A DNA stretch of 64,000 nucleotides from NCBI RefSeq assembly GCF_002831625.1, contig NZ_CP025116.1, positions 3,029,501-3,093,500 on the forward strand, written 5' to 3'. This document shows, piece after piece, positions 2,321 to 60,049 of the stretch. Source of the DNA: Nonlabens sp. MB-3u-79. Lineage in GTDB: Bacteria > Bacteroidota > Bacteroidia > Flavobacteriales > Flavobacteriaceae. The translations under genes and the position numbers were made by a program. The notes under the pieces are model-generated. The model was given only the letters and a program-made list of their open reading frames with translations. It searched no databases and was not told the origin of the DNA. The first letter of the stretch is position 1; each line of letters opens with the position of its first letter.

Positions 2321-2334
2321 GCTTTCGCGAAAGC
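2321..2334. repeat. GCTTTCGCGAAAGC palindrome, copy 1 (intergenic)
   Basis: Perfect 14-bp palindrome; the dyad extends to 22 bp here (TTCC on the left, GGAA on the right). It lies between the two msrB genes, next to the terminator of the upstream one. Confidence 0.97.
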
Positions 2335-2345
2335 GGAAAAAAAAT

Positions 2346-2374
2346 AAAGCTCCTTAACTAAGTCAGGAGCTTTT
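2346..2374 (-). terminator. Rho-independent terminator of the lipoprotein msrB
   Basis: A 9-bp stem (AAAGCTCCT / AGGAGCTTT) with a 10-base loop. Read on the minus strand it is followed by a long T-rich run, and it begins about 25 bases past the stop of the upstream minus-strand gene. Confidence 0.85.
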
Positions 2375-2397
2375 ATAAATCTTACGTTATACAGCAA

Positions 2398-4052: not shown

Positions 4053-4134
4053 ATAATTTGTTTAACGTTCATGATCAAAAGTTTAACAAAATTGTGATAA
4101 ACAATTGCTCTTGGACCTTTACTTTTACATACAT

Positions 4135-6198
4135 ATGAGCATTCAGAATAATCCATTATTACAAAAGTTTGAAACTTTTAATGACACGGCTCCTTTTTCA
4201 TTGATAAAGGAATCTCATTATGAGTCTGCTTTCGCGAAAGCGATACAACTTGCAAAAAAAGAAATCGATGCCATCACTGAGAATACGGCAAAGCCTACGT
4301 TTGAGAATACGATAGAAGCTTTAGACAGCTCTGCAGAGTTATTAGGACGTATTTCCAGCATCTTTTTCAACCTCAACAGCGCAGAAACCAATGACGAAAT
4401 TCAAAAAATTGCTCGTGATGTAAGTCCGCAATTATCTGAATTTGGTAACGATGTGATCCTTAATGAAGCTCTTTTTAAAAGAGTAAAAACTGTTCATGAA
4501 AATAAAGCTTCCTTAGATTTAACAGAGGAACAAAAGACATTGTTGGACAAAGAGTACAAACGTTTTTCTCGCAATGGGGCCAACCTTACGGAAGATAAAA
4601 AGAAACGTTTAAGAGAAATAGACAACCAGCTTTCACAATTGTCTTTAGATTTTGGAGAGCGCGTTCTTGCAGCAACTAATGTTTATGAACTGCACATAGA
4701 AGAGGACTCCAGATTAACAGGCTTACCAGAAAGTGCTAAAGAAGCTGCTGCCGAAGCAGCAAAGGAAAAAGGTAAAGACGGTTATCTTTTTACTTTAGAT
4801 TACCCAAGCTACATTCCTTTTATGACTTATTTAGACGATAGGAAATTGCGAGAGGAGCTGTCAAAGGCATTTGGTGCAAAAGCTTATAAAGACGAGTATG
4901 ATAATCAAGAAAATGTTTTAAAGATTGCGCAGCTTCGTTACGAAAGAGCACAGTTATTAGGTTATCAAACTCATGCACATTTTGTTTTGGAAGAACGAAT
5001 GGCAAAAACACCTGAAATGGTCAATAATTTTTCTCAAGAGATTCTTGAAAAAGCGACACCTGCAGCACAAAAAGAATTTGATGAGCTTACTAATTTTGCC
5101 ATCTCGGTTTCTAATCAATCAGAAAACTCAGAATCCATTACCAAATTAGAGAAATGGGATGCTGCTTATTATTCAGAAAAATTAAAGCAACGTCTTTTTG
5201 ACTTGGACGATGAGCTGTTAAAACCATATTTTAAATTAGAGAATGTGATCAATGGTGTTTTTGAAATCGCCAGTCGTCTGTACGGACTTAGTTTTGAAGA
5301 AACGACCGAAATAGAAAAATACCATCCAGATGTTTTTACCTATGTGGTAAAAAATGAAGACAATACATTAAACGCTATCTTCTATGCCGACTTTTTCCCG
5401 CGCAAAGGAAAACGCAACGGTGCCTGGATGACTTCTTTTAAAAACCAGTGGCATGATGAGGATGGTCACAACATAAGACCACATATATCTAACGTATGTA
5501 ATTTCACTAAACCTACAGCTACTAAGCCGTCACTCCTTACTTTTAATGAAGTAACTACTTTATTTCATGAATTTGGCCATGCTCTTCACGGTATGCTAGC
5601 AGACACGAAGTACAGAAGTCTATCGGGAACATCAGTATTCTGGGATTTTGTTGAACTACCGAGTCAAATTTTAGAAAACTGGTGCTATGAAAAAGAAGCT
5701 CTAGAAATTTTTGCAAGACATTACGAGACAGACGAAGTGATACCATCAACATATATTGATAAAATAAAAGCTGCGGCAAACTTTCAAGAAGGTTTACAAA
5801 CGTTGAGACAACTTTCTTTTGGAATGATGGATATGAGTTGGCACGGAATTGATCCTACAGGGATTACAGATGTCAAAGCTCATGAGAGAAAAACATTTGA
5901 TCAAACCGATCTATACCCAGATGTAGCAAGCAGTTGTATGAGTACTGCTTTTGCACATATTTTTCAAGGGGGGTACAGTGCAGGATATTACAGTTATAAA
6001 TGGGCAGAGGTACTCGATGCAGATGCTTTTGAAGTATTCCAAGAAAAGGGAATTTTTGACAGAACAACGGCAAAGAAATTTAGAGATAACGTACTCTCTA
6101 GAGGAGGAACTGAAGACCCAATGTTATTGTATACTCGTTTCCGTGGAAGCGAACCTAAAATAGATGCTTTATTAAAAAGAGCTGGATTAGTGGCTTGA
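4135..6198 (+). CDS. M3 family metallopeptidase (oligopeptidase A / dipeptidyl carboxypeptidase type)
   Basis: A zinc endo-oligopeptidase that cleaves short peptides, probably in the cytoplasm because no signal peptide is present. The zinc site HEFGHALHG lies near residue 479, with a downstream Glu (WDFVELPSQILENW) as third ligand. The 687-residue length matches Dcp/OpdA. An upstream start exists at 4105, but the Met at 4135 gives MSIQNNPLLQKFETF, the usual family N-terminus. A copy of the GCTTTCGCGAAAGC palindrome (4228-4241) is embedded early in the gene and encodes SAFAKAI at a position where the family usually has an AFxKA helix. Confidence 0.95.
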   Translation: MSIQNNPLLQKFETFNDTAPFSLIKESHYESAFAKAIQLAKKEIDAITENTAKPTFENTIEALDSSAELLGRISSIFFNLNSAETNDEIQKIARDVSPQLSEFGNDVILNEALFKRVKTVHENKASLDLTEEQKTLLDKEYKRFSRNGANLTEDKKKRLREIDNQLSQLSLDFGERVLAATNVYELHIEEDSRLTGLPESAKEAAAEAAKEKGKDGYLFTLDYPSYIPFMTYLDDRKLREELSKAFGAKAYKDEYDNQENVLKIAQLRYERAQLLGYQTHAHFVLEERMAKTPEMVNNFSQEILEKATPAAQKEFDELTNFAISVSNQSENSESITKLEKWDAAYYSEKLKQRLFDLDDELLKPYFKLENVINGVFEIASRLYGLSFEETTEIEKYHPDVFTYVVKNEDNTLNAIFYADFFPRKGKRNGAWMTSFKNQWHDEDGHNIRPHISNVCNFTKPTATKPSLLTFNEVTTLFHEFGHALHGMLADTKYRSLSGTSVFWDFVELPSQILENWCYEKEALEIFARHYETDEVIPSTYIDKIKAAANFQEGLQTLRQLSFGMMDMSWHGIDPTGITDVKAHERKTFDQTDLYPDVASSCMSTAFAHIFQGGYSAGYYSYKWAEVLDADAFEVFQEKGIFDRTTAKKFRDNVLSRGGTEDPMLLYTRFRGSEPKIDALLKRAGLVA
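4228..4241. repeat. GCTTTCGCGAAAGC palindrome, copy 2 (inside the M3 peptidase gene)
   Basis: Perfect 14-bp copy read in frame as GCT TTC GCG AAA GC, giving AFAKA. Confidence 0.97.
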
Positions 6199-6227
6199 TG
6201 ACATGTATAAGTGATCAATTATAACTA

Positions 6228-8259: not shown

Positions 8260-8267
8260 TACTTTTG
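8260..8267 (+). promoter_or_regulatory. Probable promoter of gcvP (-7 box TACTTTTG)
   Basis: TACTTTTG matches the Bacteroidota -7 consensus TAnnTTTG. A TTG lies 23 bases upstream (8234-8236) as a candidate -33 element. The box is about 50 bases before the chosen gcvP start, which argues against the TTG codon at 8265 as the true start. Confidence 0.6.
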
Positions 8268-8318
8268 CAGAGAATTCAGCAAGAATTCAATATCTTAAAT
8301 ATAGACCACATAAGTACT

Positions 8319-11159
8319 ATGAATACAGATCGTTTTGCCCTAAGACATATCGGACCTCGCGAGGAAGACCTTGCCTCCATGCTTGAAACAATAGGTGTTG
8401 AATCTATTGACCAACTAGTTTATGAAACTGTACCAGAAAACATACGCCTTCAACAGGATTTACAATTAGATCCAGCGATGAGTGAGTATGAATTCCTGAG
8501 TCATATCAATAAATTAGGTAGTAAAAATAAACAATTTAGAACCTATATAGGTCTTGGTTATCACGCCCCTATTACACCGGCTGTTATCCAAAGAAATGTT
8601 TTAGAAAATCCAGGTTGGTATACCGCTTACACTCCTTATCAGGCAGAGATTGCCCAAGGACGTCTAGAGGCTTTATTGAATTACCAGACCATGATATCAG
8701 ACCTTACTGGTATGGAATTATCTAATGCATCCCTACTAGATGAATCTACAGCTGCTGCTGAGGCGATGACCTTACTTTTCTCTGTTCGTGACCGTGCTCA
8801 GAAGAAAGAAAATATAGTAAAGTTCTTTGTAGATCAAGATACTTTACCACAAACTAAGGAACTTTTGAAAACTCGTGCTATTCCTCTAGGAATTGAGTTG
8901 GTAGAAGGAAACCCTGAAGACATGGATTTTAATGATGGTTATTATGCCATTTTATTACAATATCCTGGTGCGAGTGGAAATGTCGTAGACTATACCGCTT
9001 TCGCGAAAACTTGCCAAGAAAATGATATCCGTATAGCAGTAGCTGCAGATATACTTTCCCTTGCATTACTAGAAGCTCCAGGACATTGGGGAGCAGATGT
9101 AGTAGTAGGAACAACACAACGTTTTGGTATTCCATTAGGTTATGGTGGACCACACGCAGCCTACTTTGCAACACGTGAAGAATTTAAAAGACAAATTCCA
9201 GGACGTATCATAGGTGTAACTAAAGACACCGATGGAAAACGTGCCTTACGCATGGCGTTACAAACGCGTGAGCAACACATTAAAAGAGATAAAGCGACTT
9301 CAAATATTTGTACCGCACAAGTATTACTTGCTGTAATGGCCGGTATGTATGGAGTATATCATGGCCCACGTGGCTTGAAGTTTATTGCAAACAAAGTTCA
9401 CGCTCAAACAGCTACTCTTGCAGACGCTGTTGAAAAATTGGGTATTTACCAAACCAATACTAACTTCTTTGACACCTTGAGTTTCAAAGTAGATGCGGCA
9501 GCGGTTGAAAAAGAAGCCTTGAAATTAGAAATTAATTTCTATTATCCTGATGCCAACACGGTTCAAGTTTCTTTAAATGAAACTACTTCTTTGGCAGACG
9601 TGAATGATATTGTTTCCGCTTTCGCGAAAGCGGTCAACAAAGACTTCTCTCCTATCACAGAGTTATTAGAGAAAACACATTTAGGAACAGGTCGTCAAAC
9701 GGAATTCATGACCTATAAAGTATTCAACTCTTATCATTCTGAAACAGAGTTGATGCGTTACATCAAAAAATTAGAGCGCAAAGATTTAGCATTGAATCAC
9801 TCGATGATTGCACTAGGTTCTTGTACGATGAAATTGAACGCTGCAGCCGAAATGTTGCCTCTTTCAAATCCGCAATGGGGAAATATTCACCCATTTGTAC
9901 CCCTAGATCAGGCCGAAGGTTATCAGCAAATGTTGAAGAAACTAGAATTGCAATTGAATGAAGCAACTGGTTTTGCTGGAACTTCACTGCAACCTAATTC
10001 TGGAGCGCAAGGAGAGTTTGCAGGTTTAATGACCATACGTGCCTATCATATATCACGAGGTGATGAACACAGAAACATCTGTTTGATTCCGTCAAGTGCT
10101 CATGGAACAAATCCGGCGAGTGCAGTAATGGCTGGAATGAAAGTAGTTGTGACTAAAGCACTAGAAAACGGAAACATCGACGTAAAAGATTTGCGTGAAA
10201 AAGCAGAGAAATACAAAGACAACTTAAGTGCGTTGATGGTGACTTACCCATCTACTCATGGAGTTTATGAAAGTGCCATTCAAGAAATTACAGGACTCAT
10301 CCATGAAAATGGTGGTCAAGTATACATGGATGGAGCTAATATGAATGCACAAGTAGGATTAACAAACCCTGGAAACATTGGTGCAGACGTTTGTCACTTA
10401 AATTTACACAAAACTTTTGCCATCCCTCATGGTGGTGGTGGACCTGGTGTAGGACCTATATGTGTGGCACCACAACTGGTTCCTTTCTTACCTACTAACC
10501 CTATCATACCTACTGGTGGTGCTCAAGCAATCTCTCCTATTAGTGCAGCCCCTTTCGGTAGTGCGCTAGCCTGTTTGATTTCTTATGGTTACATCTGTAT
10601 GTTAGGCGCTGAGGGCTTAAAAAGCTCTACCGAATATGCTATTGTAAACGCCAATTATATCAAGGAACGTCTGGAAGGTAGTTATGCTTGTTTATATGTA
10701 GGCGAAAAAGGTCGTGCTGCTCACGAAATGATTATTGACTGTCGTCCATTTAAAGACCACGGTATTGAAGTAGTAGATATTGCAAAACGTTTGATGGATT
10801 ATGGCTTCCACTCTCCTACCGTATCTTTCCCAGTAGCGGGAACAATGATGATTGAGCCTACAGAATCAGAATCTAAAGAAGAAATGGATCGTTTCTGTGA
10901 CGCGATGATTTCCATTAAAAAAGAGATTGATGCAACTTCTGCAGACGAGCCTAACAACCTGCTTAAGAACAGTCCGCATACCTTACAAATGATCACTGCA
11001 GACGAGTGGGATTTCCCATACACAAGAAGTCAAGCGGCATATCCTTTAGAATATGTCTCTGACAATAAATTCTGGCCTACCGTACGTCGTGCAGACGATG
11101 CTTATGGAGACCGTAATTTGATGTGTACTTGTGCTCCTATGGAGGAGTATATGGATTAA
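8319..11159 (+). CDS. gcvP: Glycine dehydrogenase (decarboxylating), P protein of the glycine cleavage system
   Basis: Decarboxylates glycine and loads the aminomethyl group on the H protein lipoyl arm. The 946-residue single-chain form carries both halves of the P protein. The PLP lysine is in HLNLHKTFAIPHGGG near residue 698. The start MNTDRFALRHIGPRE is the family norm; an upstream TTG start overlaps the predicted promoter. A perfect palindrome copy (9618-9631) encodes SAFAKAV, and a degenerate copy (8997-9010) encodes TAFAKT. The T and H proteins are not adjacent. A strong terminator follows. Confidence 0.98.
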   Translation: MNTDRFALRHIGPREEDLASMLETIGVESIDQLVYETVPENIRLQQDLQLDPAMSEYEFLSHINKLGSKNKQFRTYIGLGYHAPITPAVIQRNVLENPGWYTAYTPYQAEIAQGRLEALLNYQTMISDLTGMELSNASLLDESTAAAEAMTLLFSVRDRAQKKENIVKFFVDQDTLPQTKELLKTRAIPLGIELVEGNPEDMDFNDGYYAILLQYPGASGNVVDYTAFAKTCQENDIRIAVAADILSLALLEAPGHWGADVVVGTTQRFGIPLGYGGPHAAYFATREEFKRQIPGRIIGVTKDTDGKRALRMALQTREQHIKRDKATSNICTAQVLLAVMAGMYGVYHGPRGLKFIANKVHAQTATLADAVEKLGIYQTNTNFFDTLSFKVDAAAVEKEALKLEINFYYPDANTVQVSLNETTSLADVNDIVSAFAKAVNKDFSPITELLEKTHLGTGRQTEFMTYKVFNSYHSETELMRYIKKLERKDLALNHSMIALGSCTMKLNAAAEMLPLSNPQWGNIHPFVPLDQAEGYQQMLKKLELQLNEATGFAGTSLQPNSGAQGEFAGLMTIRAYHISRGDEHRNICLIPSSAHGTNPASAVMAGMKVVVTKALENGNIDVKDLREKAEKYKDNLSALMVTYPSTHGVYESAIQEITGLIHENGGQVYMDGANMNAQVGLTNPGNIGADVCHLNLHKTFAIPHGGGGPGVGPICVAPQLVPFLPTNPIIPTGGAQAISPISAAPFGSALACLISYGYICMLGAEGLKSSTEYAIVNANYIKERLEGSYACLYVGEKGRAAHEMIIDCRPFKDHGIEVVDIAKRLMDYGFHSPTVSFPVAGTMMIEPTESESKEEMDRFCDAMISIKKEIDATSADEPNNLLKNSPHTLQMITADEWDFPYTRSQAAYPLEYVSDNKFWPTVRRADDAYGDRNLMCTCAPMEEYMD
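9618..9631. repeat. GCTTTCGCGAAAGC palindrome, copy 3 (inside gcvP)
   Basis: Perfect copy with an extended dyad CCGCTTTCGCGAAAGCGG. It is read in frame as AFAKA. A second, imperfect copy with AAAAC at its right end lies in the same gene at 8997. Confidence 0.97.
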
Positions 11160-14595: not shown

Positions 14596-15321
14596 CTAAT
14601 AAACGACCTCCATATCTATAAAAATATCATCTTTAGGCCAGTCGCTATCATCCCTCGGCACTCTCGCAATTTGATCTGCGATTTCCATTCCTTTTGTAAC
14701 CCTACCAAATATGGTATGCTCCTTATCCAGATGTGGCGAGGAATTTAAAGTGATAAAAAAATCAAACGGATCGTGCCAGTTCTGAGGATTATCAATCCAT
14801 TGTTTGGCACTGCTTAAAGAACCTCTTTCATGCTTCACCCCTGGCAAAAAATGTGGTGGCAATTTATAATTACCCGCACTCGCTCTTTTCAAAGACGGTA
14901 AGACTTCATCACTATTTCCAGCTTGTATTACAAAGTCTTCTACTACTCGATGAACATAAGTACCATTAAAATATCCGTTTTTTACTAGGAAAATAAAGCT
15001 ACCCCTGTAAATAGGAGTCTCTGTAAACAGCTCCATTTCTATGATTCCATAGGTGGTTATTAAACGTACTCTGGTCTCGGGGTTTTCTTTAGCATACCTC
15101 GTAAAAAACACCTGTACACTGTCTTGTGGTATGTACGCAAGCAAGGTGTCACCGCTGGTAGAAATCTGGCGTTTGTATGTTTTTTCTAGAATACGCTGCT
15201 CCTTTGTTAATCGTTTTACCGTATCCTGTGCTTCTTCTTTTATGATTTTTTGAACTTGTGGAGTATCTTTACAAGAGAAACAACACCACACCAGTATTAA
15301 AACGAGGAAAATTGACTTCAT
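14596..15321 (-). CDS. Cyclophilin-type peptidyl-prolyl cis-trans isomerase, lipoprotein
   Basis: Catalyses proline isomerisation to assist folding of exported proteins. The start at 15321 gives MKSIFLVLILVWCCFSC, a lipoprotein signal; an upstream start would place 21 unrelated residues before it. The cyclophilin domain begins with RLITTYGIIEMELFTETP, followed by GTYVHRVVEDFVIQAG and HTIFGRVTKGMEIADQI. About 90 residues between leader and domain are charged. It is divergent from the NUDIX gene, with start codons overlapping or nearly so. The N-terminal block is closely matched by the truncated cyclophilin at 60050. Confidence 0.9.
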   Translation of the reverse strand: MKSIFLVLILVWCCFSCKDTPQVQKIIKEEAQDTVKRLTKEQRILEKTYKRQISTSGDTLLAYIPQDSVQVFFTRYAKENPETRVRLITTYGIIEMELFTETPIYRGSFIFLVKNGYFNGTYVHRVVEDFVIQAGNSDEVLPSLKRASAGNYKLPPHFLPGVKHERGSLSSAKQWIDNPQNWHDPFDFFITLNSSPHLDKEHTIFGRVTKGMEIADQIARVPRDDSDWPKDDIFIDMEVVY

Positions 15322-15959
15322 TTGATGATTTTTTGAATCAGCTATCAAAGCTAAAGAAATTACCACTTCCAGGCATAGAATCACAGCTTAAAATGGCTGC
15401 GGTACAACGCTTGGATGAAATGCAGCGCATTACTTTAGAGGATCGCACTCCAAAAGAAGCCTCTGTAATGATGTTGATTTACCCAAAAGGTGATATTCCG
15501 CATTTTGTTCTTATTGAGCGCACAACATCTACTGGCAAGCACAGCGGTCAGATTGCTTTTCCTGGCGGTAGAAAGGAGAGGAGTGATCATGACCACAGTG
15601 TGACCGCTTTACGTGAAACAGAGGAGGAAATTGGAATAGACAGGAACGATCAACACTTGATCATGCCGTTGACTTCTATTTACATTCCTCCAAGCAATTA
15701 TATGGTTTATCCTTATCTCGCTTTCGCGAAAGCGGAATTAAAATTCACCCCTCAAATAAGCGAAGTAAAATCTGTGATCGAAATAAAACTTTCAGAATTG
15801 CTGGACCATAAAAACCAAAAACGTACGGTATTATCAACCAGTTATATGAAAGAAGTGAGTGTGCCTTGCTTTTACTTCGGGGAGGTGATGGTCTGGGGAG
15901 CCACGGCAATGATGTTACAAGAAATAAAAGATGCTTTTATCGCTGCGGAGTTTGAGTAG
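15312..15959 (+). CDS. NUDIX hydrolase, CoA pyrophosphatase type
   Basis: Hydrolyses CoA or a related nucleotide diphosphate to phosphopantetheine and adenosine bisphosphate. The NUDIX region reads SGQIAFPGGRKER, then TALRETEEEIGI, the spacing of NudL-type CoA pyrophosphatases. The start is uncertain: TTG 15312 (MTSFDDFLNQLSK) fits the family N-terminus and nearly abuts the divergent cyclophilin start; ATG 15258 adds 18 unlikely residues. A perfect GCTTTCGCGAAAGC palindrome (15720-15733) encodes LAFAKAE in the C-terminal half. Confidence 0.9.
   Translation: MTSFDDFLNQLSKLKKLPLPGIESQLKMAAVQRLDEMQRITLEDRTPKEASVMMLIYPKGDIPHFVLIERTTSTGKHSGQIAFPGGRKERSDHDHSVTALRETEEEIGIDRNDQHLIMPLTSIYIPPSNYMVYPYLAFAKAELKFTPQISEVKSVIEIKLSELLDHKNQKRTVLSTSYMKEVSVPCFYFGEVMVWGATAMMLQEIKDAFIAAEFE
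15720..15733. repeat. GCTTTCGCGAAAGC palindrome, copy 4 (inside the NUDIX gene)
   Basis: Perfect copy read in frame as AFAKA. Confidence 0.97.
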
Positions 15960-18722: not shown

Positions 18723-19892
18723 TCAAACTTTAACAGCCTCAATAACAATAGCTCCTAATTCCTGCGCACTTGTAAAAAACAAATAGTCACTTTCGTGTTC
18801 AGAAAACCGGTATTTCTTGCGCAGCTGCGCTACCGTTTCTTTGTTGTTGCGAGTGACGATTGCTCTAGCACTTTTAGCATAAAGCCTTTTTAATATTTTG
18901 GGTTTGTTTTGAGAAACCTTTTTAATTTCAAAAACGCGACCAGGGAAATCAAATAAGTTTTCTGAAGTAAATAAGTGGGCATCTTGATCCAACTTTTGCA
19001 AGGCATATTGCTGCATTAGGGAATCAAACTGTTGGGATTTCATAACAGCAGCGTTAGGCTCATACAGGTATTTTTGAGGCTTGGAGTAAGTAGTACTGTA
19101 CTGTACTTCCAGAATGCTTTTAAAAATGGGTTGATCTGTCAAAAGGTTGACACAGGTTAAACTGACCTGACTTACCTCTTCCTTGGTTAAAACCCAAAGC
19201 AATTCTTTGACTTCATTTTTTACCGCCACGATATGTAAAGAGCTCACCTTTTCTAATTGTAAGATACCTGCGGTAATATCTAGCATGGGAGATGTTTTGA
19301 TCATGACCCTTTTACCTCTATCGAGTAATAACTCTAAGTTTTCAATCACATTAGGCTCGTAGTCTTTTAACAAGATTGCCTTCGTGTGTGTCGCTGTTTT
19401 TCTACTGGGATCTAAGTAAATTAAATCATAAAACTCTTGATTTGCTCTAACAAATTGAATTCCGTCACCTTGAAATGACATCGTTTGAAGTTCTTGTACT
19501 TTAAATGAATGTTGTGCGTATTCCTGCAAAGATTTAGAAAGTTCTATATGGGTTGTTGAGGAGCAGGCTTTCGCGAAAGCGGAAACGTCAATACCAAATC
19601 CACCCGTAAGATCAATCATGCTATCGATCTGATACAGTTGCGATTTGTAGACAGCCGTTATTTCGGAACTGGTTTGCTCTAAATTTACTTTAGGCGGATA
19701 CATGATTTGATGATTCTCAAAAAGAGAAGGGAATTTATGACGCGCCTTCTGCAAGCCTACTAATTGCTGTGTGAGTTCCTGATTGGAGACCCTGTCAAAA
19801 GGATGCTTCTGGAGCATAAAAGCCGCTGCAGTCTCTTGCAAATGAGCTTTTAAATAAGTGTCTATTTCTGTTCTTATGACAGCCTGATTCAT
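18723..19892 (-). CDS. Class I SAM-dependent methyltransferase with THUMP-like C-terminal domain
   Basis: 389 residues. The SAM-binding loop is IDLTGGFGIDVSAFAKA, and the acidic catalytic strand reads YDLIYLDPSRK (D-P-S rather than NPPY). The C-terminus resembles the THUMP-like domain of Bacteroidota methyltransferases, so an RNA substrate is likely but unproven. It starts directly after the stop of the AI-2E transporter gene (TAG then ATG), which shows operon organisation. Its palindrome copy (19567-19580) lies in the SAM loop region and encodes AFAKA. Confidence 0.87.
   Translation of the reverse strand: MNQAVIRTEIDTYLKAHLQETAAAFMLQKHPFDRVSNQELTQQLVGLQKARHKFPSLFENHQIMYPPKVNLEQTSSEITAVYKSQLYQIDSMIDLTGGFGIDVSAFAKACSSTTHIELSKSLQEYAQHSFKVQELQTMSFQGDGIQFVRANQEFYDLIYLDPSRKTATHTKAILLKDYEPNVIENLELLLDRGKRVMIKTSPMLDITAGILQLEKVSSLHIVAVKNEVKELLWVLTKEEVSQVSLTCVNLLTDQPIFKSILEVQYSTTYSKPQKYLYEPNAAVMKSQQFDSLMQQYALQKLDQDAHLFTSENLFDFPGRVFEIKKVSQNKPKILKRLYAKSARAIVTRNNKETVAQLRKKYRFSEHESDYLFFTSAQELGAIVIEAVKV
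19567..19580. repeat. GCTTTCGCGAAAGC palindrome, copy 5 (inside the methyltransferase gene)
   Basis: Perfect copy. On the minus strand it reads TCC GCT TTC GCG AAA GCC, giving SAFAKA immediately after the SAM-binding glycine loop. Confidence 0.97.
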
Positions 19893-21765: not shown

Positions 21766-22530
21766 ATGTATCTACTACCATCTTATAAAGTATTTATTCC
21801 CCTATTAAGCTTATTTGGAGCTTTTACTATACTGGCATTTCAACATGCTGAAAATAGTTCAGAGCCTATCACAGGGACTCCACAAAAGAACCCAATCGTT
21901 TTAGAGCTATTTACTTCTCAAAGTTGTCCAACTTGCGAAAATGCTGACATTCTTGCTAATACCATTAAAGATTATAAGAACGTAATCGTCTTGTCATATC
22001 ATATAGATTACTGGAATCAACTAGGGTGGATAGATACATTTTCAGACGCAAGCCATACCGATTACCAACGCAATTATGAAAGAAGATTTGATCGCAATTC
22101 TTACGCGCCTCAGATGGTATTGAACGGTAGATCTGAATTTGATGGAGCAAATGTTAGGTTACTTAACTCTTCTTTAAAAGAACAAAGTACTACAGAAAAA
22201 CTACGTACTCCTCAAATTAATAGAAATGAGAATAAATCTGTAAGCGTGTCTTATGATTTTTTTACAGAAAAAAAATATGATAAAGCTTACGCATTGCTCA
22301 TCATAGATTCTTATGATGTAGCGATTGATAATGGTCCCAACATAGGTAAATTGATGACCAATACCAATATTGTTATTAACCGAGCACCTCTTCAACTGGA
22401 CAGCTCTAAGGGGAATTATACTTTTGAATTAGCTCCCAATGTAAAAGAAACTGATCAATTTAAAGTTGCTATTATTCTACAGGATAACAACTTGAATATT
22501 GTAGGAGCCTCTGTATCTAAGATTCAGTAA
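21766..22530 (+). CDS. DUF1223 thioredoxin-fold secreted protein
   Basis: 254 residues with an N-terminal hydrophobic anchor or signal segment (VFIPLLSLFGAFTILAF). The DUF1223 core contains the redox-like motif SQSCPTCENAD and YHIDYWNQLGWIDTFS. Members are periplasmic proteins with a thioredoxin fold; the C-P-T-C pair suggests redox activity, but the partner is unknown. The 3' end overlaps the convergent rsmE by 14 bases. Confidence 0.88.
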   Translation: MYLLPSYKVFIPLLSLFGAFTILAFQHAENSSEPITGTPQKNPIVLELFTSQSCPTCENADILANTIKDYKNVIVLSYHIDYWNQLGWIDTFSDASHTDYQRNYERRFDRNSYAPQMVLNGRSEFDGANVRLLNSSLKEQSTTEKLRTPQINRNENKSVSVSYDFFTEKKYDKAYALLIIDSYDVAIDNGPNIGKLMTNTNIVINRAPLQLDSSKGNYTFELAPNVKETDQFKVAIILQDNNLNIVGASVSKIQ

Positions 22531-23224
22531 TACTATTAAAAATAGCAGCGGTGTAAACACCTGCGGTCTCTGTACGCAGCCTTTTAGTTCCTAAAGATGT
22601 AGGTATAAAGCCGTTTTTTAAGGCCATTTCTATTTCGATTAATGATAAGTCTCCTTCTGGACCTATAATCATGGTGAGATCTTGATCTTTATGTAAGAGT
22701 TGAGAAAGCATCTTCTTATCTGTTTCTTCACAATGCGCAATACCTTTTACTCCCTTTAGATCTGCTTTTATAAAATCAGTAAATGGAGTAAGCTCTTCTA
22801 AAACTGGAAGATAAAACTGATTGCTTTGTTTCATTGCACTGATTAAAATCTTCTGAAATCGAGCTGAATTTATTTTTTTACGTTCGCTATGCTCACATAG
22901 TAAAGGGGTTATTTTTGAAATCCCCATTTCTGTAGCTTTTTCTAGAAACCACTCCATACGATCGTTCATTTTAGTGGGTGCAATAGCGATATGTAACTGT
23001 GACGTTGGTGGAGGATACGCTTTCGCGAAAGCGACATCTATATTACATTTACTACTGGTCACAAGGCTTATCGTGCCATGGAATAGATTTCCTACTCCAT
23101 CTGTGATATGAACTTGATCACCTGCTTTTTTACGCAACACCTTAGTCATATGGGTGGCTTGTTCCTTATCAAGTTCCAGGCTGTTGGATTCTGGAGATAT
23201 ACTGGAATAATAAAATAATTGCAT
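22517..23224 (-). CDS. rsmE: 16S rRNA (uracil-1498-N3)-methyltransferase
   Basis: Methylates U1498 of 16S rRNA using SAM. The 235-residue SPOUT-fold protein shows the family blocks: LEKATEMGISKITPLLCEHSE, IIGPEGDLSLIEIE and SLGTKRLRTETAGVYTA. Its ATG overlaps the stop of tsaD by one base (TAATG), so translation is coupled. A palindrome copy (23019-23032) encodes VAFAKAY in the N-terminal region. Confidence 0.95.
   Translation of the reverse strand: MQLFYYSSISPESNSLELDKEQATHMTKVLRKKAGDQVHITDGVGNLFHGTISLVTSSKCNIDVAFAKAYPPPTSQLHIAIAPTKMNDRMEWFLEKATEMGISKITPLLCEHSERKKINSARFQKILISAMKQSNQFYLPVLEELTPFTDFIKADLKGVKGIAHCEETDKKMLSQLLHKDQDLTMIIGPEGDLSLIEIEMALKNGFIPTSLGTKRLRTETAGVYTAAIFNSITES
23019..23032. 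repeat. GCTTTCGCGAAAGC palindrome, copy 6 (inside rsmE)
   Basis: Perfect copy. On the minus strand it is read in frame as AFAKA. Confidence 0.97.
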
Positions 23225-30600: not shown

Positions 30601-30614
30601 GCTTTCGCGAAAGC
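30601..30614. repeat. GCTTTCGCGAAAGC palindrome, copy 7 (intergenic)
   Basis: Perfect copy between the divergent recF and TPR genes. Confidence 0.97.
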
Positions 30615-33565: not shown

Positions 33566-34086
33566 AATTAGTGTCTGGTTAAACTTTTTAAATTCTAAGG
33601 AGCCGTTTTAAAATAAAAGCTCCAACACCCTATAGGTCGTAAAGGAGTTTTAATTATTTCAAAAAGAAGATGTTAAATTTTTTATTGCTTTCGCGAAAGC
33701 GAAACTGATCACCAGCTATATCAATACTTGTTGGAACCAGCAAGGGTTTTTCAAATACTGCTATTTCATTTGATCATAACGTTCTAAGAATAAATGTACT
33801 TATCCTTTAAAAAAACTAAAAGCTCTAGCTATTATCCAAAATATAAAAGGGAGTAAAAGAACTCGTAATCGATTCCATTAAAAAACAGGATTGTGCTTAA
33901 TAACATACCAACTAACAAGCTAATAGTTAATACATATGTCCGTGTTAGATTCCTGAAATCATTACTAACTACCTAGTGATGATCCATAGAAGTTCTTAAA
34001 CAAAATTTAAAATTGGCCTTAGCCCATTTTAAAATCTGAAAACCTATCGACAAAACGAAAATCGAGATTTTTCGTTTTGACAAATA
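33566..34086. other. Gene-free stretch upstream of the membrane protein and downstream of pheT
   Basis: About 520 bases without a supported gene. It contains palindrome copy 8 and, just before the pheT stop, an imperfect dyad around CGAAAATCGAGATTTTTCG (34053-34071) that may be the pheT terminator. Confidence 0.5.
33687..33700. repeat. GCTTTCGCGAAAGC palindrome, copy 8 (intergenic)
   Basis: Perfect copy in the gene-free stretch between pheT and the minus-strand membrane protein gene. Confidence 0.97.
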
Positions 34087-36553: not shown

Positions 36554-36567
36554 GCTTTCGCGAAAGC
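36554..36567. repeat. GCTTTCGCGAAAGC palindrome, copy 9 (intergenic)
   Basis: Perfect copy about 45 bases upstream of the pheT start, in its leader or promoter region. Confidence 0.97.
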
Positions 36568-38274: not shown

Positions 38275-39615
38275 ATGCCTACTGCTTTACAAGCTATTTC
38301 TCCTATCGATGGACGCTACCGTTCTAAAGTCGAGCCCCTTGCCAATTACTTTTCTGAGTCTGCCTTGATACGTTACCGCGTTCTTGTAGAAGTGGAGTAT
38401 TTTATCGCTTTAAGCGAAAGCGGAATTAAACAACTGCAGCCCCTCCCTGAGCCTACTCAAGAACAATTAAGAGACTTATACCGCAAGTTTACAGATAAGG
38501 ATGCACAGGCTATCAAGGACATAGAAAAGGTGACCAACCACGATGTCAAAGCCGTAGAATATTTTCTAAAAGAACAATTTGATCTTTTGGGCTTATCGGC
38601 TCATAAAGAATTTATCCATTTTGGATTGACTTCACAAGACATCAATAACACGGCTATCCCGCTTTCTATAAAAGATGCCATAGAAAACGTATACCTACCA
38701 GAATTAGAGGAAGTACGCGATGAAATCTACCGTCTGTCCAACAACTGGAAGGACATCCCATTGTTAGCTCGCACCCATGGACAGCCAGCTTCTCCTACAC
38801 GTTTAGGTAAAGAATTCTATGTATTTGTAGTGCGTATAGAAGAGCAAATGAATATGCTGGAACAAGTAAAGCATGCAGCAAAATTTGGTGGAGCAACAGG
38901 AAATTACAACGCTCATCATGTGGCATTCCCGCAAGTGAACTGGCAAAAATTTGGTCAGGACTTTGTAGAAAACAGTCTAGGTCTTAAACACAGTTTTCCA
39001 ACAACTCAAATCGAGCATTACGACCATATGGCATCTCTTTTTGATAACCTAAAGAGAATCAATACCATTTTTATAGATTTAGATAGAGATATCTGGACCT
39101 ATATATCAATGGATTACTTCAAGCAAAAAATTAAAGCTGGTGAGATAGGTTCTAGCGCAATGCCACATAAAGTGAACCCTATAGATTTTGAAAACTCTGA
39201 AGGGAACTTAGGAATTGCAAATGCTCTTTTTGAGCACCTATCTGCAAAATTACCGATCTCTAGATTACAACGCGATTTAACCGATTCTACTGTATTAAGA
39301 AATGTAGGAGTGCCATTAGCACATACTATTATTGCCTTTAAAGCCACTTTGAAAGGACTTAGCAAGCTTTTATTAAATGAAGCCAAAATCGCTCAAGACT
39401 TAGAGAATAATTGGGCTGTAGTTGCAGAAGCTATTCAAACTATTTTACGTCGTGAGGCTTATCCTAATCCGTATGAAGCTTTAAAAGAACTGACGCGCAC
39501 TAACGAAAAGATCACTGGAAAAAGCATTGCTAATTTTATTGAAACTTTAGAGATAAGCGAAGACATCAAAGCAGAAATGAGAGTCATCACTCCAAGTACC
39601 TTTACGGGTATTTAA
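38275..39615 (+). CDS. purB: Adenylosuccinate lyase
   Basis: Cleaves SAICAR and adenylosuccinate, two steps of purine synthesis. The 446-residue protein of the fumarase/aspartase superfamily has the signature GSSAMPHKVNPIDFEN, the HFGLTSQDINN block and RTHGQPASPT. The start MPTALQAISPIDGRYRSK is the family N-terminus. A degenerate form of the palindrome (CGCTTTAAGCGAAAGCGG, 38406-38423) occurs early in the gene. A terminator follows. Confidence 0.97.
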   Translation: MPTALQAISPIDGRYRSKVEPLANYFSESALIRYRVLVEVEYFIALSESGIKQLQPLPEPTQEQLRDLYRKFTDKDAQAIKDIEKVTNHDVKAVEYFLKEQFDLLGLSAHKEFIHFGLTSQDINNTAIPLSIKDAIENVYLPELEEVRDEIYRLSNNWKDIPLLARTHGQPASPTRLGKEFYVFVVRIEEQMNMLEQVKHAAKFGGATGNYNAHHVAFPQVNWQKFGQDFVENSLGLKHSFPTTQIEHYDHMASLFDNLKRINTIFIDLDRDIWTYISMDYFKQKIKAGEIGSSAMPHKVNPIDFENSEGNLGIANALFEHLSAKLPISRLQRDLTDSTVLRNVGVPLAHTIIAFKATLKGLSKLLLNEAKIAQDLENNWAVVAEAIQTILRREAYPNPYEALKELTRTNEKITGKSIANFIETLEISEDIKAEMRVITPSTFTGI

Positions 39616-42049: not shown

Positions 42050-42829
42050 TTGTTTCACTTTATATTTACTTATTTTTCTCACCTCATCAAGTCATTTCAC
42101 TTGCATGGCATACACTCCCCTTTTGTTTTTCAATTGGAAAAAAAGTGTCTTAGAGATGCTGGATCCTATGTGGATTATGTAAAATTATCTCGCTTTCGCG
42201 AAAGCTTACACCACAACAACAGCAGCTTACATATAGAAGATCACGGTGCGGGAAGTAGGGTTTTTAAATCTAATGACAGAACGGTAAGCCAAATTCTCCA
42301 GCACAATTGCAGTACTAAAAAAGACGCTCAATTGCTGTACCGATTGTGTACTTATTTTAAAGTGAACAGGGTTCTGGAATTAGGCACCTCTTTAGGAGTA
42401 GCGACTCATGCTATGGCAACCTCAAGACCTCAAGCACAAATTACGACTGTAGAAGGAAGTCCTGAAGTTTATGAATTTGCAAAAAAAACGTTTGAAAAAG
42501 AAGGCGTGCAACAGGTGAATCTTGTGAATGCTACTTTTAAAAAATTCTTTAAAAAACAAAATACTCCTTCTCCTGTTTACGATCTGATTTATATAGATGG
42601 CCATCACAATGGTGCCGCTACCTGTTCTTACTTTGAGAGCATTTTGAATCAAGTACATAATGATACGGTCGTGATCTTTGACGACATCTACTGGTCTAAA
42701 GACATGACTCGTGCGTGGAATCAAATTTGCCATCATCCACAAGTGACGGCAAGCGTGGACTGTTTTGATTTTGGACTGATTTTCTTTAGAAAAGAACAGA
42801 AGCAAGAGCGATTTTATGTGAAGTTGTAA
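42050..42829 (+). CDS. Class I SAM-dependent methyltransferase (O-methyltransferase-like)
   Basis: 259 residues. The N-terminus FHLHGIHSPFVFQLEKKC is the usual start of this Bacteroidota family, so the TTG start at 42050 is preferred although no ATG is available. The SAM loop reads VLELGTSLGVATHAMA, with acidic residue TVEGSPEVYEFAKK and the DLIYIDGHHNG strand. The substrate is unknown. A palindrome copy (42192-42205) is read here in another frame (RFRES), unlike the other genic copies. Confidence 0.88.
   Translation: MFHFIFTYFSHLIKSFHLHGIHSPFVFQLEKKCLRDAGSYVDYVKLSRFRESLHHNNSSLHIEDHGAGSRVFKSNDRTVSQILQHNCSTKKDAQLLYRLCTYFKVNRVLELGTSLGVATHAMATSRPQAQITTVEGSPEVYEFAKKTFEKEGVQQVNLVNATFKKFFKKQNTPSPVYDLIYIDGHHNGAATCSYFESILNQVHNDTVVIFDDIYWSKDMTRAWNQICHHPQVTASVDCFDFGLIFFRKEQKQERFYVKL
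42192..42205. repeat. GCTTTCGCGAAAGC palindrome, copy 10 (inside a methyltransferase gene)
   Basis: Perfect 14-bp copy, followed by T rather than the usual G. It is read as CGC TTT CGC GAA AGC, giving RFRES, the only genic copy not encoding AFAKA. Confidence 0.97.
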
Positions 42830-47026: not shown

Positions 47027-47040
47027 GCTTTCGCGAAAGC
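47027..47040. repeat. GCTTTCGCGAAAGC palindrome, copy 11 (intergenic)
   Basis: Perfect copy between the carboxylase start and the M23 peptidase stop, both on the minus strand. Confidence 0.97.
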
Positions 47041-49806: not shown

Positions 49807-49820
49807 GCTTTCGCGAAAGC
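49807..49820. repeat. GCTTTCGCGAAAGC palindrome, copy 12 (intergenic)
   Basis: Perfect copy with the dyad extended (TTCC left, GGAA right), between divergent SulP and beta-barrel genes. Confidence 0.97.
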
Positions 49821-55895: not shown

Positions 55896-56385
55896 TCTCA
55901 ATTATTATTTTGCTAGAGTCTTTTACACGAGCCATTTATTGAAGCATAAAAACAAAAAACCGATACCTATAAAAAACTCTCCGCACTAGAAACAAAACTA
56001 AACGCCCCGTTATCACTAAATAGAAAGTTCCAGTTTTAACAGTTGAGAAGTAATTTAACGTTGTAATACTTGCTGTTAGTAGTCTTTAAATAAACGGTGC
56101 AATACGATTTATCCTTTAAAGACCGTGGCACCGAACCAATCCAAAAGCAATAGGAAAACAAACTTCCTAAAAAAGACTAGCTAACAATTTCAAAATAAGC
56201 ATGAAACAAAATTGAACTTTTTGAAAATTAGAAAAAAGTAAGCTGGATTTCTTTGGTTCACACAATGGGTAAAAGCCATTCGTCGACAGTAAATTGTATC
56301 CCAACGTTGTCCGTTTTGCATCAATCGAAAATTGAAAAATGACCTGTATTTGTAGTATACTTTCGCAGCATAAATAAATGAGGTC
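55896..56385. other. Gene-free stretch upstream of the ice-binding protein
   Basis: No supported gene. A minus-strand frame of 75 codons is present but shows no protein-like features. The right end carries the promoter of the ice-binding gene. Confidence 0.45.
56358..56365 (+). promoter_or_regulatory. Probable promoter of the ice-binding protein gene
   Basis: TACTTTCG is one base from the TAnnTTTG consensus, 20 bases before the ATG. A TTG lies 23 bases upstream (56332-56334), the same spacing as at gcvP. Confidence 0.45.
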
Positions 56386-59300
56386 ATGAAAATAATATTA
56401 CTATCAATCCTTATCATCGCCTGTAGTTTTAATACAACAGCTCAGAGTAATCAGTCATCAACAGATTTCTATTTTGGTTCTGCGGCTAATTTTATACTGT
56501 TTACAGGAGCTGGAGCAGTAGCCAATACCGGTATTTCTACAGTTACGGGTGATGTTGGTTCTAATATAGGAGCAATATCTGGCTTTGGATCACCTACAGT
56601 TCTAAACGGAACTATAGAAAATGCCAATCCAATTACTACACAAGCCGCTATAGATTTAGCAGCAGCCTGCGTTCAAATTCAAAACACACCAGTCACAATA
56701 TCGAATCATAGTACAATTTATGGCAGTGTTGCCGGGGAGACTATTTACCCGGGAGTGTATACTGCTGGAGCAGCTGCATCCATTCTTGGAACTCTGACAT
56801 TAGATGCTCAGGGAGATCCTGATGCTCTGTTTGTTTTTAAAATTGAAGGAGCGCTTTCTTCAGTGGCTGGCTCGAATATTATTTTAGCAAATGGCGCTTC
56901 GTCTGACAATGTTTTTTGGATTGCCGTTGGCGCAGTTGGTTTGGGGGCAAATACTACCATGGTTGGCACATTTATAGGATATCCAGGAGCAGTTGAATTG
57001 GGAGCCGGAGGAAATCTAGACGGCAGATTATATTCTACTGTTGGCGCGATCGCAATCAATGGAACCGTTGCGACAATTCCATCTTATAATATTCCTTTTG
57101 GTTGCGATTCCAGTGCTTATCTATTCCAGAACAATGATATTTACGCTCTAGATTTAGCATCAGGGAACTCTTATGAAATTGCTGCAGACATTACTACAGG
57201 AAGTATAAATGCAGTAGGATACAATCCAGTAGACGGGTATATTTGGGGTTCTTTAAGTTCTCCAGAAAAAACGATAGTACGTATTGGTGGAAATTTCAAT
57301 ACAACCCGCTTCTATATAAATGAACTACCAACTAGTGATAGAACTATTGGAGATATAAGTGCAGACGGCATCTATTATTTAAAGGGTGAAGGCACTACCT
57401 ACTATAAAATAGATCTTGATCCTAATTCTGCAAATTACACTCAACACCAATCAACAGAAAGTTTATCTCTAAATATAAGTATTGATGATTGGGCTTTTAA
57501 TGCAGTTGACGGAAATTTATACACCGTAGAGAGAAACTCAAATATTTTATATCGCATTGATCCTTCAAACGGAAACGTACAAGCTTTAGGCGAAGTGCCA
57601 ATCTTATCAGGAGTAACCTATACGTATGATGCAACGTACTTCGATGCAGATGGTCGTTTTTATGTATCAGCAAGTGAAACAGGAACAATATATGCCATTC
57701 AAAGTGTACAAAGCGTAATAGTCAATGGTACAATAAATTCGAAACTATTTGCTTTCGGACCCTCAAGCTCTAACAATGATGGTGCACGTTGCCCTACAGC
57801 TATTGTGAGCCAAGAAATTTGTGATAATGGAATTGATGATGATGGTGACGGCCTTATAGATTGTGAAGATCCTTCATGTTCAACTTATGGTGATTGTTCC
57901 CTCTCACTAGATGCAACAACGGGAAGTAGTGACGGTGGTTTAGAAAGTAATAACCGATTATCAGAACAGATCAATAAGCGTAATTTTAATCGTGCAAAAA
58001 CAGGATATACATTCGATAGAAATTCTGCAAGAAGAGTTATTAAAAAGGGGGTATATGCACAACGTGCTACTAATAATAATTTTAGTTTAGAAGATTTTAT
58101 TCCTTTAGATATTATTAATGAAGATGAGGTTATTGATGCTTCACCTTCAGATTTAGTAAGTATTACAAATGCAACTGAGATATATGGTGTAGATTATTTA
58201 AGAAACAACATTCCAGTAGCTTCTATTCTGGCCATAAAAACTGAGAATGGGGTTTATGAACATACTAAATACATTTGTGATCGTTTGTTAGGAGCAGAGT
58301 TAATATCCGTAAATACGATTGACATCAACGGACAATCATTCATTAAGTCTATTATAAAAAATGTAGATGGCACTTATGAGTTTGTATTAAGTCTATCGGC
58401 TAAGGTGGTAAACAATGATGGAAACTTCGCGATAGAGAGTCACTGGAATCTCGATCAATACGAACAAAATGTCACCTTTTATAACTTTCAAATTTGGACG
58501 AACTCAATTGATGATTTATTTAAACTTGGGCAAGAAGTCTTATTTTTACTAGATGTGAAAAAATTAATTTCAACATATAACAACTCAACACCTCCAACAG
58601 TATTTGTTAGAAAAGGAAAGTATGTTAATGGTGCTTTAGATTTACAAATCATCAATATGAATGCTACGGAAACCATACATTTTGATGCTAATCTTAGAAC
58701 CACGGAAACGAGTGAATTTGACAACATGAACTCAACAGTAGCATTGAATGAACAATACATTACAAACCTACAATTAGAAACTGGAAACTTATTTGATATC
58801 GGCTTTAGAATTGGTGATGGCTTTGCAACACCAGACGATTTATTCATGTCTGATGGACCTTGGGGAATTGATTATTCACAAGGAGACACTACAGTAGACA
58901 CCTATGCAATTCTACCAAACGATTTTACCTATGCTCCCAATGATTTCCCGATAGAACGCAACATTGTCTTGAAAGCAACAACAAATAGCTATGTAGCGGC
59001 TTACAGAGCGCTTACCCCAAGATTCAAAGCCGTAGACTTAAGTGACTACAATAGCTTAAAATTTAGTGCAAAAGGGACAGGAAGTTTAGAAATTACATTT
59101 GTAAAAGCAAGTGTTTCTAACTGGGAAGAACAATATAAAAGCAACATTACTTTAGATAATATAACACAAAATTACGTTTTACCCATATCGAGTTTTAAAT
59201 CAGGAAATAGCACCGGTTTAGAATTAAATGATGTCGTGACCGTGGTGTTTACTATGATAAGCGAAGATGGCTCAATTAGTTCAAAGGAATTAACACTAGA

Positions 59301-59607
59301 AAACCTACATTTATCTCAAGACACACCAGGTGTAGAAGACGTAACTCAACAAACAATGAATCTTTTTGCATCACCAAATCCAATAACCTCCGCAACAACG
59401 ATACAATTTACAACGAAGCAAACAGAAACTGTACAACTTGTCGTCTATGACCAATTAGGAAAAGTAATATCCCAAACAACACATAGTACAACACCTGGAG
59501 AAAATAGAATTTCATTAAACAGCAACAACTTAAGCACAGGTATCTATTTCTGTAGCATTGTAAGTCAACAAATATTTTACAATGCCATAAAATTAATAGC
59601 CAGATAA
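56386..59607 (+). CDS. Multidomain ice-binding protein (DUF3494) with T9SS sorting tail
   Basis: 1073 residues, secreted (MKIILLSILIIACSFNTTAQ). Domains in order: DUF3494 ice-binding beta-helix, residues about 24-230 (FILFTGAGAVANTGISTVTG, GVYTAGAAASILGTLTL, DALFVFKIEGALSS, GTFIGYPGAVELGAGG, LDGRLYSTVGAIAI); a DUF6923-like repeat domain, about 238-445 (YNPVDGYIWG, FNAVDGNLYTVERN); a Cys/Asp-rich linker (DNGIDDDGDGLIDCEDP); a long unassigned region; a carbohydrate-binding or CIA30-like beta domain, about 880-980; and a type A T9SS tail (NLFASPNPITSATTIQF; LSTGIYFCSI). It would bind ice outside the cell or at the surface. Confidence 0.92.
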   Translation: MKIILLSILIIACSFNTTAQSNQSSTDFYFGSAANFILFTGAGAVANTGISTVTGDVGSNIGAISGFGSPTVLNGTIENANPITTQAAIDLAAACVQIQNTPVTISNHSTIYGSVAGETIYPGVYTAGAAASILGTLTLDAQGDPDALFVFKIEGALSSVAGSNIILANGASSDNVFWIAVGAVGLGANTTMVGTFIGYPGAVELGAGGNLDGRLYSTVGAIAINGTVATIPSYNIPFGCDSSAYLFQNNDIYALDLASGNSYEIAADITTGSINAVGYNPVDGYIWGSLSSPEKTIVRIGGNFNTTRFYINELPTSDRTIGDISADGIYYLKGEGTTYYKIDLDPNSANYTQHQSTESLSLNISIDDWAFNAVDGNLYTVERNSNILYRIDPSNGNVQALGEVPILSGVTYTYDATYFDADGRFYVSASETGTIYAIQSVQSVIVNGTINSKLFAFGPSSSNNDGARCPTAIVSQEICDNGIDDDGDGLIDCEDPSCSTYGDCSLSLDATTGSSDGGLESNNRLSEQINKRNFNRAKTGYTFDRNSARRVIKKGVYAQRATNNNFSLEDFIPLDIINEDEVIDASPSDLVSITNATEIYGVDYLRNNIPVASILAIKTENGVYEHTKYICDRLLGAELISVNTIDINGQSFIKSIIKNVDGTYEFVLSLSAKVVNNDGNFAIESHWNLDQYEQNVTFYNFQIWTNSIDDLFKLGQEVLFLLDVKKLISTYNNSTPPTVFVRKGKYVNGALDLQIINMNATETIHFDANLRTTETSEFDNMNSTVALNEQYITNLQLETGNLFDIGFRIGDGFATPDDLFMSDGPWGIDYSQGDTTVDTYAILPNDFTYAPNDFPIERNIVLKATTNSYVAAYRALTPRFKAVDLSDYNSLKFSAKGTGSLEITFVKASVSNWEEQYKSNITLDNITQNYVLPISSFKSGNSTGLELNDVVTVVFTMISEDGSISSKELTLENLHLSQDTPGVEDVTQQTMNLFASPNPITSATTIQFTTKQTETVQLVVYDQLGKVISQTTHSTTPGENRISLNSNNLSTGIYFCSIVSQQIFYNAIKLIAR

Positions 59608-60049
59608 TTATAAGTTTTTAAGGTACTCCTAATTCCAAGATACAAGTAATATTTAGTTAAGGTTTGACGCTTTCGCGAAAGCGATATACTCTCGTGAATA
59701 TAGAACAGTCAACATCATCACGAATTGGGCTATTGTTACATAAACATTTGCTACGCAAACCCAAATAGCCTAGTTATAGTGCACATAGCACACAATAAGC
59801 TAGGTAATACAAATCTTACCGTATTAATTGGACTCCCAAATGCTGAGCCTTTGCATCGAAACTAAGGGGGACAACCAAACAGTGTAACACAATTCAATAG
59901 CCTTTGCTTTGACTTTTCAGAAAAACAGGTCAAGAATAACTTCCCTTATTTTGGTGTAATTACTCAATGCTAGCAGGGAATAAAAAATGGCAATACACGA
60001 TATAATCTATTGGTTGAAAGTTGGGCATCATTAACTTAAAAAGATAAAA
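59608..60049. other. Gene-free stretch after the ice-binding gene, with palindrome copy 13
   Basis: About 440 bases. It contains the palindrome and an imperfect dyad (GGCTATT near 59729, AATAGCC near 59765) around a 30-base loop, the kind of structure seen at cassette junctions, but no recognisable integron attachment site. No gene. Confidence 0.45.
59669..59682. repeat. GCTTTCGCGAAAGC palindrome, copy 13 (intergenic)
   Basis: Perfect copy, and the only one right of 50 kb, although the accessory region makes up a fifth of the window. Confidence 0.97.

Follow-up and report, generated by a model that had tools for sequence, protein, structure and literature searches.

In the chromosome of Nonlabens sp. 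MB-3u-79 (Flavobacteriaceae) we analysed a stretch of 64,000 nucleotides, called the window below (NZ_CP025116.1, positions 3,029,501 to 3,093,500; window positions are counted from its first letter), which contains 13 exact copies of a 14-bp palindrome, GCTTTCGCGAAAGC; 100 dinucleotide shuffles of the window gave none. The palindrome, 'the word' in what follows, recurs in hundreds of letter-perfect copies throughout the genus, implying that a strongly selected or driven process reads this DNA. As a tentative explanation, the one we favour, the word could be a genome-wide self-DNA signal, read as a whole by a putative reader of two-fold symmetry during DNA exchange.

The genome, a single contig of 3,184,776 bp, carries 563 copies as compared with 0.0041 expected from base composition, and no copy of the word read backwards; the density is 177 per Mb, or one copy per 5.66 kb. 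The word had been noticed in an earlier reading of the window without database searches (the sequence-only reading), which proposed counting it in the complete genome and in relatives; both counts bore out the enrichment. All 13 exact copies lie where that reading placed them, followed by G in 12 cases and preceded by C in 9, and its expectation of ~0.0001 copies per 64 kb agrees with our value of about 0.00008; its estimate of roughly 40% G+C was too high (the window has 36.7%). The scarcity of copies right of 50 kb, which it had singled out, is not special at the genome's density and with gaps of 15–20 kb elsewhere.

The nearest named relatives by PheT belong to Nonlabens (N. xylanidelens, 89%, for example), and the PheT tree nests the window within this genus. 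Each of the 23 Nonlabens genomes searched, our own included, has 288–857 copies; the word was present in 20 of 20 good assemblies of the genus. (Our own genome is designated G000, relatives have numbers such as G001–G022, and G211 and G227 represent other genera of the family.) Among 349 genomes sampled from 237 genera of the family, 72 had at least one copy, and only five had hundreds: three Nonlabens, G211 (408) and G227 (857); the other genomes had 0–19. In a sample of 148 genomes of the order, three of the 127 outside Flavobacteriaceae had one copy each. The PheT tree, a quick single-gene tree with a long branch for G211, joined G211 with G227 (support 93) and grouped them with Patiriisocius and others (98), not with Nonlabens. 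In genes adjacent to comEC, three word-poor genomes (g061, g097 and g307) were mostly, if not always, nearer to G211 than Nonlabens is. By these two lines of evidence the family tree has two places where the word is common, through transfer or through loss elsewhere.

The peak of exact copies is sharp. Over 384 kb of the genome, exact copies numbered 67, one-off copies 6 and two-off copies 4; 11 palindromes made by shuffling the letters of the word gave no exact copy and one one-off copy. The corresponding ratio in loci L111–L124, 37:6:7, is biased because these loci were chosen for holding exact words. Half-sites outside the palindrome were weakly enriched: CGAAAGCG occurred 12 times (4.7 expected), TTCGCGAA 12 (6.3), CGAAAGCGG 4 (0.9), GCGAAAGC 12 (7.4), GAAAGCG 53 (39) and AGCGG 347 (308), with further words enriched at most about 1.4 times; a part of these matches belongs to near copies of the word. 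TCGCGA outside the word was in modest excess, 70 against an order-2 expectation of 49. The word is required as a whole, not as half-sites.

Spacing was computed on the first 100 of the 563 copies and, for G001, on 94 copies. In our genome the gaps (mean 5068, median 4262) had a coefficient of variation (CV) of 0.69 versus 0.99 for random placement, a value as low being reached in none of 20,000 simulations, and only 6 gaps were shorter than 0.3 of the mean (25.4 expected). Short gaps were likewise few in G001 (6 versus 23.9 expected); its CV of 0.92 was not significant (P 0.25) owing to a few very long gaps. Of sixteen 20-kb stretches along the chromosome, 15 had 2–6 copies and one had none. 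We inspected four gaps of 15–20 kb: one holds a cluster of glycosyltransferase and Wzt-type genes; the other three contain genes for secreted proteins and for a peptidase, among others, and deserts are therefore not all plainly of foreign origin. Noncoding DNA is favoured; by the ORF calls made in this analysis, used for all coding and noncoding assignments, 40 of 100 copies are noncoding in our genome (about 25% noncoding DNA) and 50 of 92 in relatives (about 18%).

Window copies were compared with those of seven relatives, and 47 of the 53 alignments were letter-perfect; of the other six, four differed at five to seven letters and two at a single letter. For copies kept or one-off, identity was 99–100% in the word and 67–90% in flanks at 31–100 bp, although such sites are not independent across relatives, and the alignments may be anchored in part by conserved words. 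A mutational hotspot, raised as a possibility in the sequence-only reading, is not supported, given the 47 letter-perfect site pairs.

We studied gain of the word in 16 alignment columns from 10 gene families, where it was present only in word-rich genomes. Nine columns were gap-free beside the word (one of these with a truncated member), and insertion as the general mode of gain was rejected on this ground; in seven at least one row had a gap. The gap-free gains overwrite protein sequence. A 367-aa ORF carries the word at one site in two different frames, one used by four Nonlabens genomes and the other by G211 and G227; word places common to different genera may reflect inheritance or convergence. 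Where a copy is coding, it determines the peptide made, mostly AFAKA and more rarely FRES or LSRK. These peptides, as well as SAFAKA, occur in unrelated proteins (e.g. at window positions 4228, 9618 and 19567), and sharing them is thus no sign of protein homology.

When both arms of the copies of our genome were lined up, the word in Nonlabens appeared as the core of a dyad of ~50 bp. Counted outward, position +1 is G in 83–84%, A predominates at +3 and +4, and few G occur between +4 and about +18; over ~15 bases the outward strand is poor in G, with a preference for A at every third base, in coding and noncoding copies alike. Counts of G at +4 to +18 versus +36 to +60 were 70/1200 versus 336/2000 in the 40 noncoding and 156/1800 versus 580/3000 in the 60 coding copies of our genome; in relatives they were 59/1500 versus 378/2500 (noncoding) and 79/1260 versus 377/2100 (coding). 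C was not depleted in our noncoding arms (288/1200 versus 329/2000). The frequency of A at +4, +7, +10 and +13, as compared with the positions between, was 0.68 versus 0.38 (noncoding) and 0.58 versus 0.34 (coding) in our genome, and 0.70 versus 0.35 and 0.61 versus 0.33, respectively, in relatives. In G227 (24 copies) G is avoided (37/720 versus 206/1200) and the triplet phase is faint (0.52 versus 0.39, P 0.007). Nonlabens has A or G at position +2, where T stands in 47% of G211 arms and 58% of G227 arms. The arms are a feature of Nonlabens and G227, probably an auxiliary one given that G211 has kept the word almost without them; core and arms may be separable.

Beyond +1 the two arms are not mutually complementary, which suggests that each is read for itself: at offsets 2–6 the numbers of complementary pairs, observed/expected of 101, were 38/32.1, 36/41.2, 53/55.2, 23/32.4 and 27/31.6. 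An RNA or cruciform hairpin extended by the arms was rejected on these counts. Identity of arms between species was overall no higher than that of more distant flanks; constraint acts on the composition of the arms rather than on their exact letters. We also considered a DnaA-trio-like reading of the period-3 arms but dropped it, since the conserved A is there on the opposite-polarity strand.

Two published Nonlabens phages (71 kb together, close relatives of one another) contain no exact word and no TCGCGA; about 12.6 copies of the word would be expected at genome density. In viral contigs, at least 120 stretches with the word were found, and among the matches listed eight stretches in six contigs had good arms; some of these encode phage-like primase, helicase, integrase or methylase. 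The 27-kb viral contig IMGVR_UViG_3300040801_003070 (L243, L177, L173) has four exact words, three of them well armed, and a phage-type primase.

Under the explanation that we favour, the reader would be a protein dimer or a machine approaching from either side; the full-length symmetric requirement and the sharpness of the peak point to a specific symmetric reader. Recognition would occur during exchange of DNA from cell to cell, most likely at import, and fragments bearing the word would be preferentially taken up and recombined. Such a bias could restore damaged copies and raise new ones by point mutation where the protein sequence allows; a fragment of a few kb would gain little from carrying a second copy, giving even spacing. 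As the C-poor strand enters and the G-poor strand leaves the site, the arms in Nonlabens may act on partly single-stranded DNA, for instance in strand separation or RecA loading. The suggestion of a protein-binding site made in the sequence-only reading has held up in that the reader is probably a DNA-binding protein; to that reading our analysis adds the longer dyad, the even spacing, the restriction in the family sample to Nonlabens and two further genera, and the parallel with uptake sequences.

This parallel is with the uptake sequences of Pasteurellaceae and Neisseriaceae as described in PMC1939737 and PMC3630211: they too are over-represented and evenly spaced, with a noncoding excess and a steep fall to one-off forms (PMC1939737), and they form dialects (PMC3630211). 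In our case the likeness to uptake sequences rests on the even spacing, the excess in noncoding DNA, the lack of copies in the two phages, small, dialect-like letter differences and occurrence at two places of the tree; all 21 genomes searched, moreover, encode the ComEC family (PF03772). Counted in favour of the self-DNA reading are also the excess over expectation, the sharp peak, the letter-perfect orthologous copies, the gains without insertion and the lack of the word in several long stretches, the glycosyltransferase cluster among them. The density of the word matches that of the Actinobacillus pleuropneumoniae uptake word (438 in 2.28 Mb; PMC1939737). Within the same family, Riemerella columbina is reported to prefer its own DNA in transformation (PMC7965970). 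Unlike uptake sequences, the word is palindromic rather than asymmetric, is needed as a whole dyad, and is rarer than the words of Haemophilus or Neisseria.

A number of observations weigh against a role in DNA uptake. Known uptake sequences are non-palindromic (PMC1939737), and under conditions effective for R. columbina, Flavobacterium johnsoniae showed no competence (PMC7965970). The exact-copy peak is sharper than in the published uptake-word cases compared, the A. pleuropneumoniae word with 947 one-off copies beside its 438 exact ones (PMC1939737) and kingDUS, for which tolerating one change raises the count by 21% (PMC3630211); such sharpness may reflect selection acting directly on every copy. 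Word-poor relatives have ComEC just as often, so that it is not diagnostic, and in the neighbourhoods of comEC and addB we found no gene common to Nonlabens, G211 and G227 yet missing from their word-poor neighbours. The arms of G211 (16 copies) show no triplet phase (0.34 versus 0.33) and slight avoidance of G (80/480 versus 171/800, P 0.04), and some mobile DNA carries the element with good arms. Nonlabens is not known to be competent. Our confidence is modest also because most of the supporting facts would equally follow from a chromosome-organising protein, which would less easily account for the sharpness of the peak or the distribution over genera.

One could go further and propose a new class of DNA identity signal, in at least three genera of marine Flavobacteriaceae, in which a palindromic core is read by a symmetric machine and triplet-phased, strand-asymmetric arms act as single strands on both sides, serving self-recognition in DNA import or end-processing. 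We hold this doubtful, having lowered our estimate since the core occurs almost armless in G211.

The main alternative to self-DNA recognition is a site for a chromosome-organising protein (nucleoid, segregation or looping; of the Noc or MatP kind) needing an anchor about every 5 kb, a possibility to which we give some, if limited, credence. Noc/ParB and MatP sites are palindromes scattered over the chromosome for a symmetric protein. The dyad symmetry of the word with its independently varying arms would suit such a role, as would the even spacing (with the word in 15 of the 16 sampled 20-kb stretches), the strong conservation of single copies and the absence from two phages. Unlike those sites, however, the word is present in hundreds of copies with few degenerate ones; organising proteins usually tolerate one-off sites, and here 6 such forms stand against 67 exact copies. 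The ParB family (PF02195) is represented by a single protein in nine of ten word-rich genomes, and an extra ParB or Noc protein as the reader was rejected, a second member being present in G006 only. Further arguments against this alternative are the two separate places of word-rich genomes in the family tree and the avoidance of G on one strand only, unusual for a reader of double-stranded DNA.

Less credible is a two-directional Chi-like signal, one that would halt a helicase-nuclease of AddAB type from either side and let RecA be loaded on the C-poor strand; we consider it unlikely. The density is close to that of Chi in E. coli (1008 in 4.64 Mb; PMC1939737), and the strand asymmetry beside the core and the triplet phase of the Nonlabens arms would fit single-strand loading; absence of the word from the two phages is in line with it as well. 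A PF12705 protein of about 920 aa, the size of AddB, which we take to be AddB, was found in 16 of 16 genomes, supplying an AddAB-type host; it is present equally in word-poor relatives, and G211 is nearly armless. Known Chi sites are short and asymmetric, unlike this symmetric word of 14 bp, and reading of one strand was rejected on the weak enrichment of half-sites such as CGAAAGCG and AGCGG. A second, weaker PF12705 match, of AddA size, occurs in 13 of the 16 genomes, not in G000; G000, G004 and G121 have a single PF12705 match each. At L331, in our own genome, the addB-like gene has no neighbouring ORF of AddA size.

The sequence-only reading compared the word to HIP1 of cyanobacteria, and the resemblance in appearance stands, as do the occurrence in genes and between them and the lack of transposon-like behaviour. 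HIP1 and alternate HIPs, as presented in PMC4390886, are perfect palindromes with a G+C-rich centre, distributed genome-wide and clade-wide in genic and intergenic DNA, and the word, strongly over-represented over the genome and with TCGCGA in its middle, shares this form. HIPs, on the other hand, are 5–8 bp long and number 1000–2000 per Mb (PMC4390886), so that the 14-bp word with 177 per Mb is 6–11 times rarer; unlike HIPs it has long asymmetric arms in Nonlabens. In Synechocystis, 5648 exact and 1830 one-off HIP1 10-mers were counted (PMC1939737). Elhai ties each HIP to a methylase (PMC4390886; the strings 'flavobacter' and 'bacteroid' are absent from its text). An origin of this type, in which a methylase would act on one portion of the word and copies would accumulate by mismatch repair or some other process, appears very improbable to us. 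Methylases of PF00145 were absent from our genome and from 7 of 13 word-rich genomes (present in six), those of PF01555 from our genome and from 6 of the 13 (present in seven), and both from three of the 13 (G000, G009 and G022), other methylase families not being searched; TCGCGA outside the word, moreover, is only modestly elevated. The suggestion that the word is a methylation site of HIP1 type is weakened by these absences. None of the families considered above (ParB, PF00145, PF01555, AddB-type and ComEC) separates word-rich from word-poor genomes.

Least probable of all is a word without function, whether a small palindrome that moves or is prone to insertion or the product of a mutational hotspot: copies are genic and intergenic, lie in different frames at similar places and have gaps beside them in 7 of 16 columns, but orthologous copies are letter-perfect across the genus, which a hotspot would not maintain, and nine columns are gap-free, without the gain by insertion and change of length that marks elements of REP/RPE type.

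The word thus resembles HIP1 in form and uptake sequences in behaviour, and lacks tested features of both; we file it as a variant of the 'genome-wide iterated signal word' outside the HIP, uptake-sequence and Chi families. In titles and abstract openings of the open-licence literature we found no earlier description of it. GajA of the Gabija system offers a precedent for a protein that needs a 15-bp near-palindrome with a GC-rich core and AT-rich wings (PMC8136825). GajA cuts its site (PMC8136825), and a reader of this type would therefore predict avoidance; the word is enriched instead. It offers a clean test case for what HIP-like words do, with one duplex as bait and one marker fragment as test.

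In word-poor genomes of the family sample, many of the copies listed are clustered. Four word-poor genera have two copies exactly 933 bp apart, and a fifth case came from the order sample; at L111, L112, L115 and L120 a 405-aa outer-membrane efflux ORF holds both words of such a pair. L111, the one cluster that was annotated, has functions in resistance to copper and heavy metals; it encodes an RND pump, an outer-membrane efflux protein, P-type metal ATPases, a multicopper oxidase and an ArsP permease. We read these clusters as islands from word-rich donors. Among 35 island copies G is avoided in the arms (84/1050 versus 319/1750), and without position +4 the triplet phase is gone (0.47 versus 0.46). 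The word may thus mark DNA from word-rich bacteria, e.g. a metal-resistance island in a word-poor genome. In Neisseriaceae, the uneven distribution of uptake sequences over mobile elements served to find such elements (PMC7371117).

Within the window, five exact copies lie in ORFs. The copy at 4228..4241 is in the SAFAKA frame of an ORF resembling oligopeptidase A (the family match scores under the curated cut-off) and is not kept in G003 and G008. The copy at 9618..9631 has the same frame in ORF 8265-11159, which is probably glycine dehydrogenase GcvP; it is found at the same place in G004, G006 and G014 and also in G211, of another genus. G017 and G227 have the word elsewhere in this gene, and six word-poor relatives have none in it. 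At 15720..15733 the word lies in ORF 15258-15959 and is retained by all seven aligned relatives. The copy at 19567..19580 is again in the SAFAKA frame (ORF 18723-19892, minus strand), and that at 23019..23032, in ORF 22517-23224, has one mismatch in G010 and is lost in G014. The copy at 42192..42205, noncoding by gene call yet within the TTG-start ORF 42050-42829, is the sole window copy without a following G and is lost in G022.

Among the remaining copies, that at 2321..2334 is intergenic with a start codon 39 bp downstream and arms reaching ~18 bases further on each side; it is kept in G010, G003 and G008 despite flank identity down to 0.56. Two copies lie between divergent genes (30601..30614 and 49807..49820) and two more are intergenic (33687..33700, with one mismatch in G022, and 47027..47040). 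The copy at 59669..59682, downstream of ORF 56386-59607, has the weakest arms of the 13 and was aligned in none of the seven relatives. Of two degenerate forms named in the sequence-only reading, the one at 8997..9010 (GCTTTCGCGAAAAC, weak arms) is indeed a one-mismatch copy, the single extra window site when two mismatches are tolerated; the other, GCTTTAAGCGAAAGC at 38407..38421, is no substitution variant, its length exceeding that of the word by one base. Rfam had no match in the window or in five desert loci.

The copy at 36554..36567, 44 bp upstream of pheT, is retained by all seven aligned relatives. Upstream of pheT (in the window and at L031-L035, L252 and L256) the word stands 43–44 bp from the gene and adjoins a conserved TATCTTTAC, which resembles a flavobacterial promoter; with this neighbour, the word may overlap the promoter.

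In 73 loci of other Flavobacteriaceae no palindrome exceeded five copies per locus at the lengths scanned. Four Salegentibacter loci (L065, L078, L092 and L095) hold 14 copies of a different iterated dyad, roughly TTAGA-nn-CTGAA-n5-TTCAG-nn-TGACG. The inner stem bases of this dyad tend to co-vary (atc/gat, aac/gtt, act/agt, aag/ctt), and from its sequence it looks like a hairpin family of REP type.

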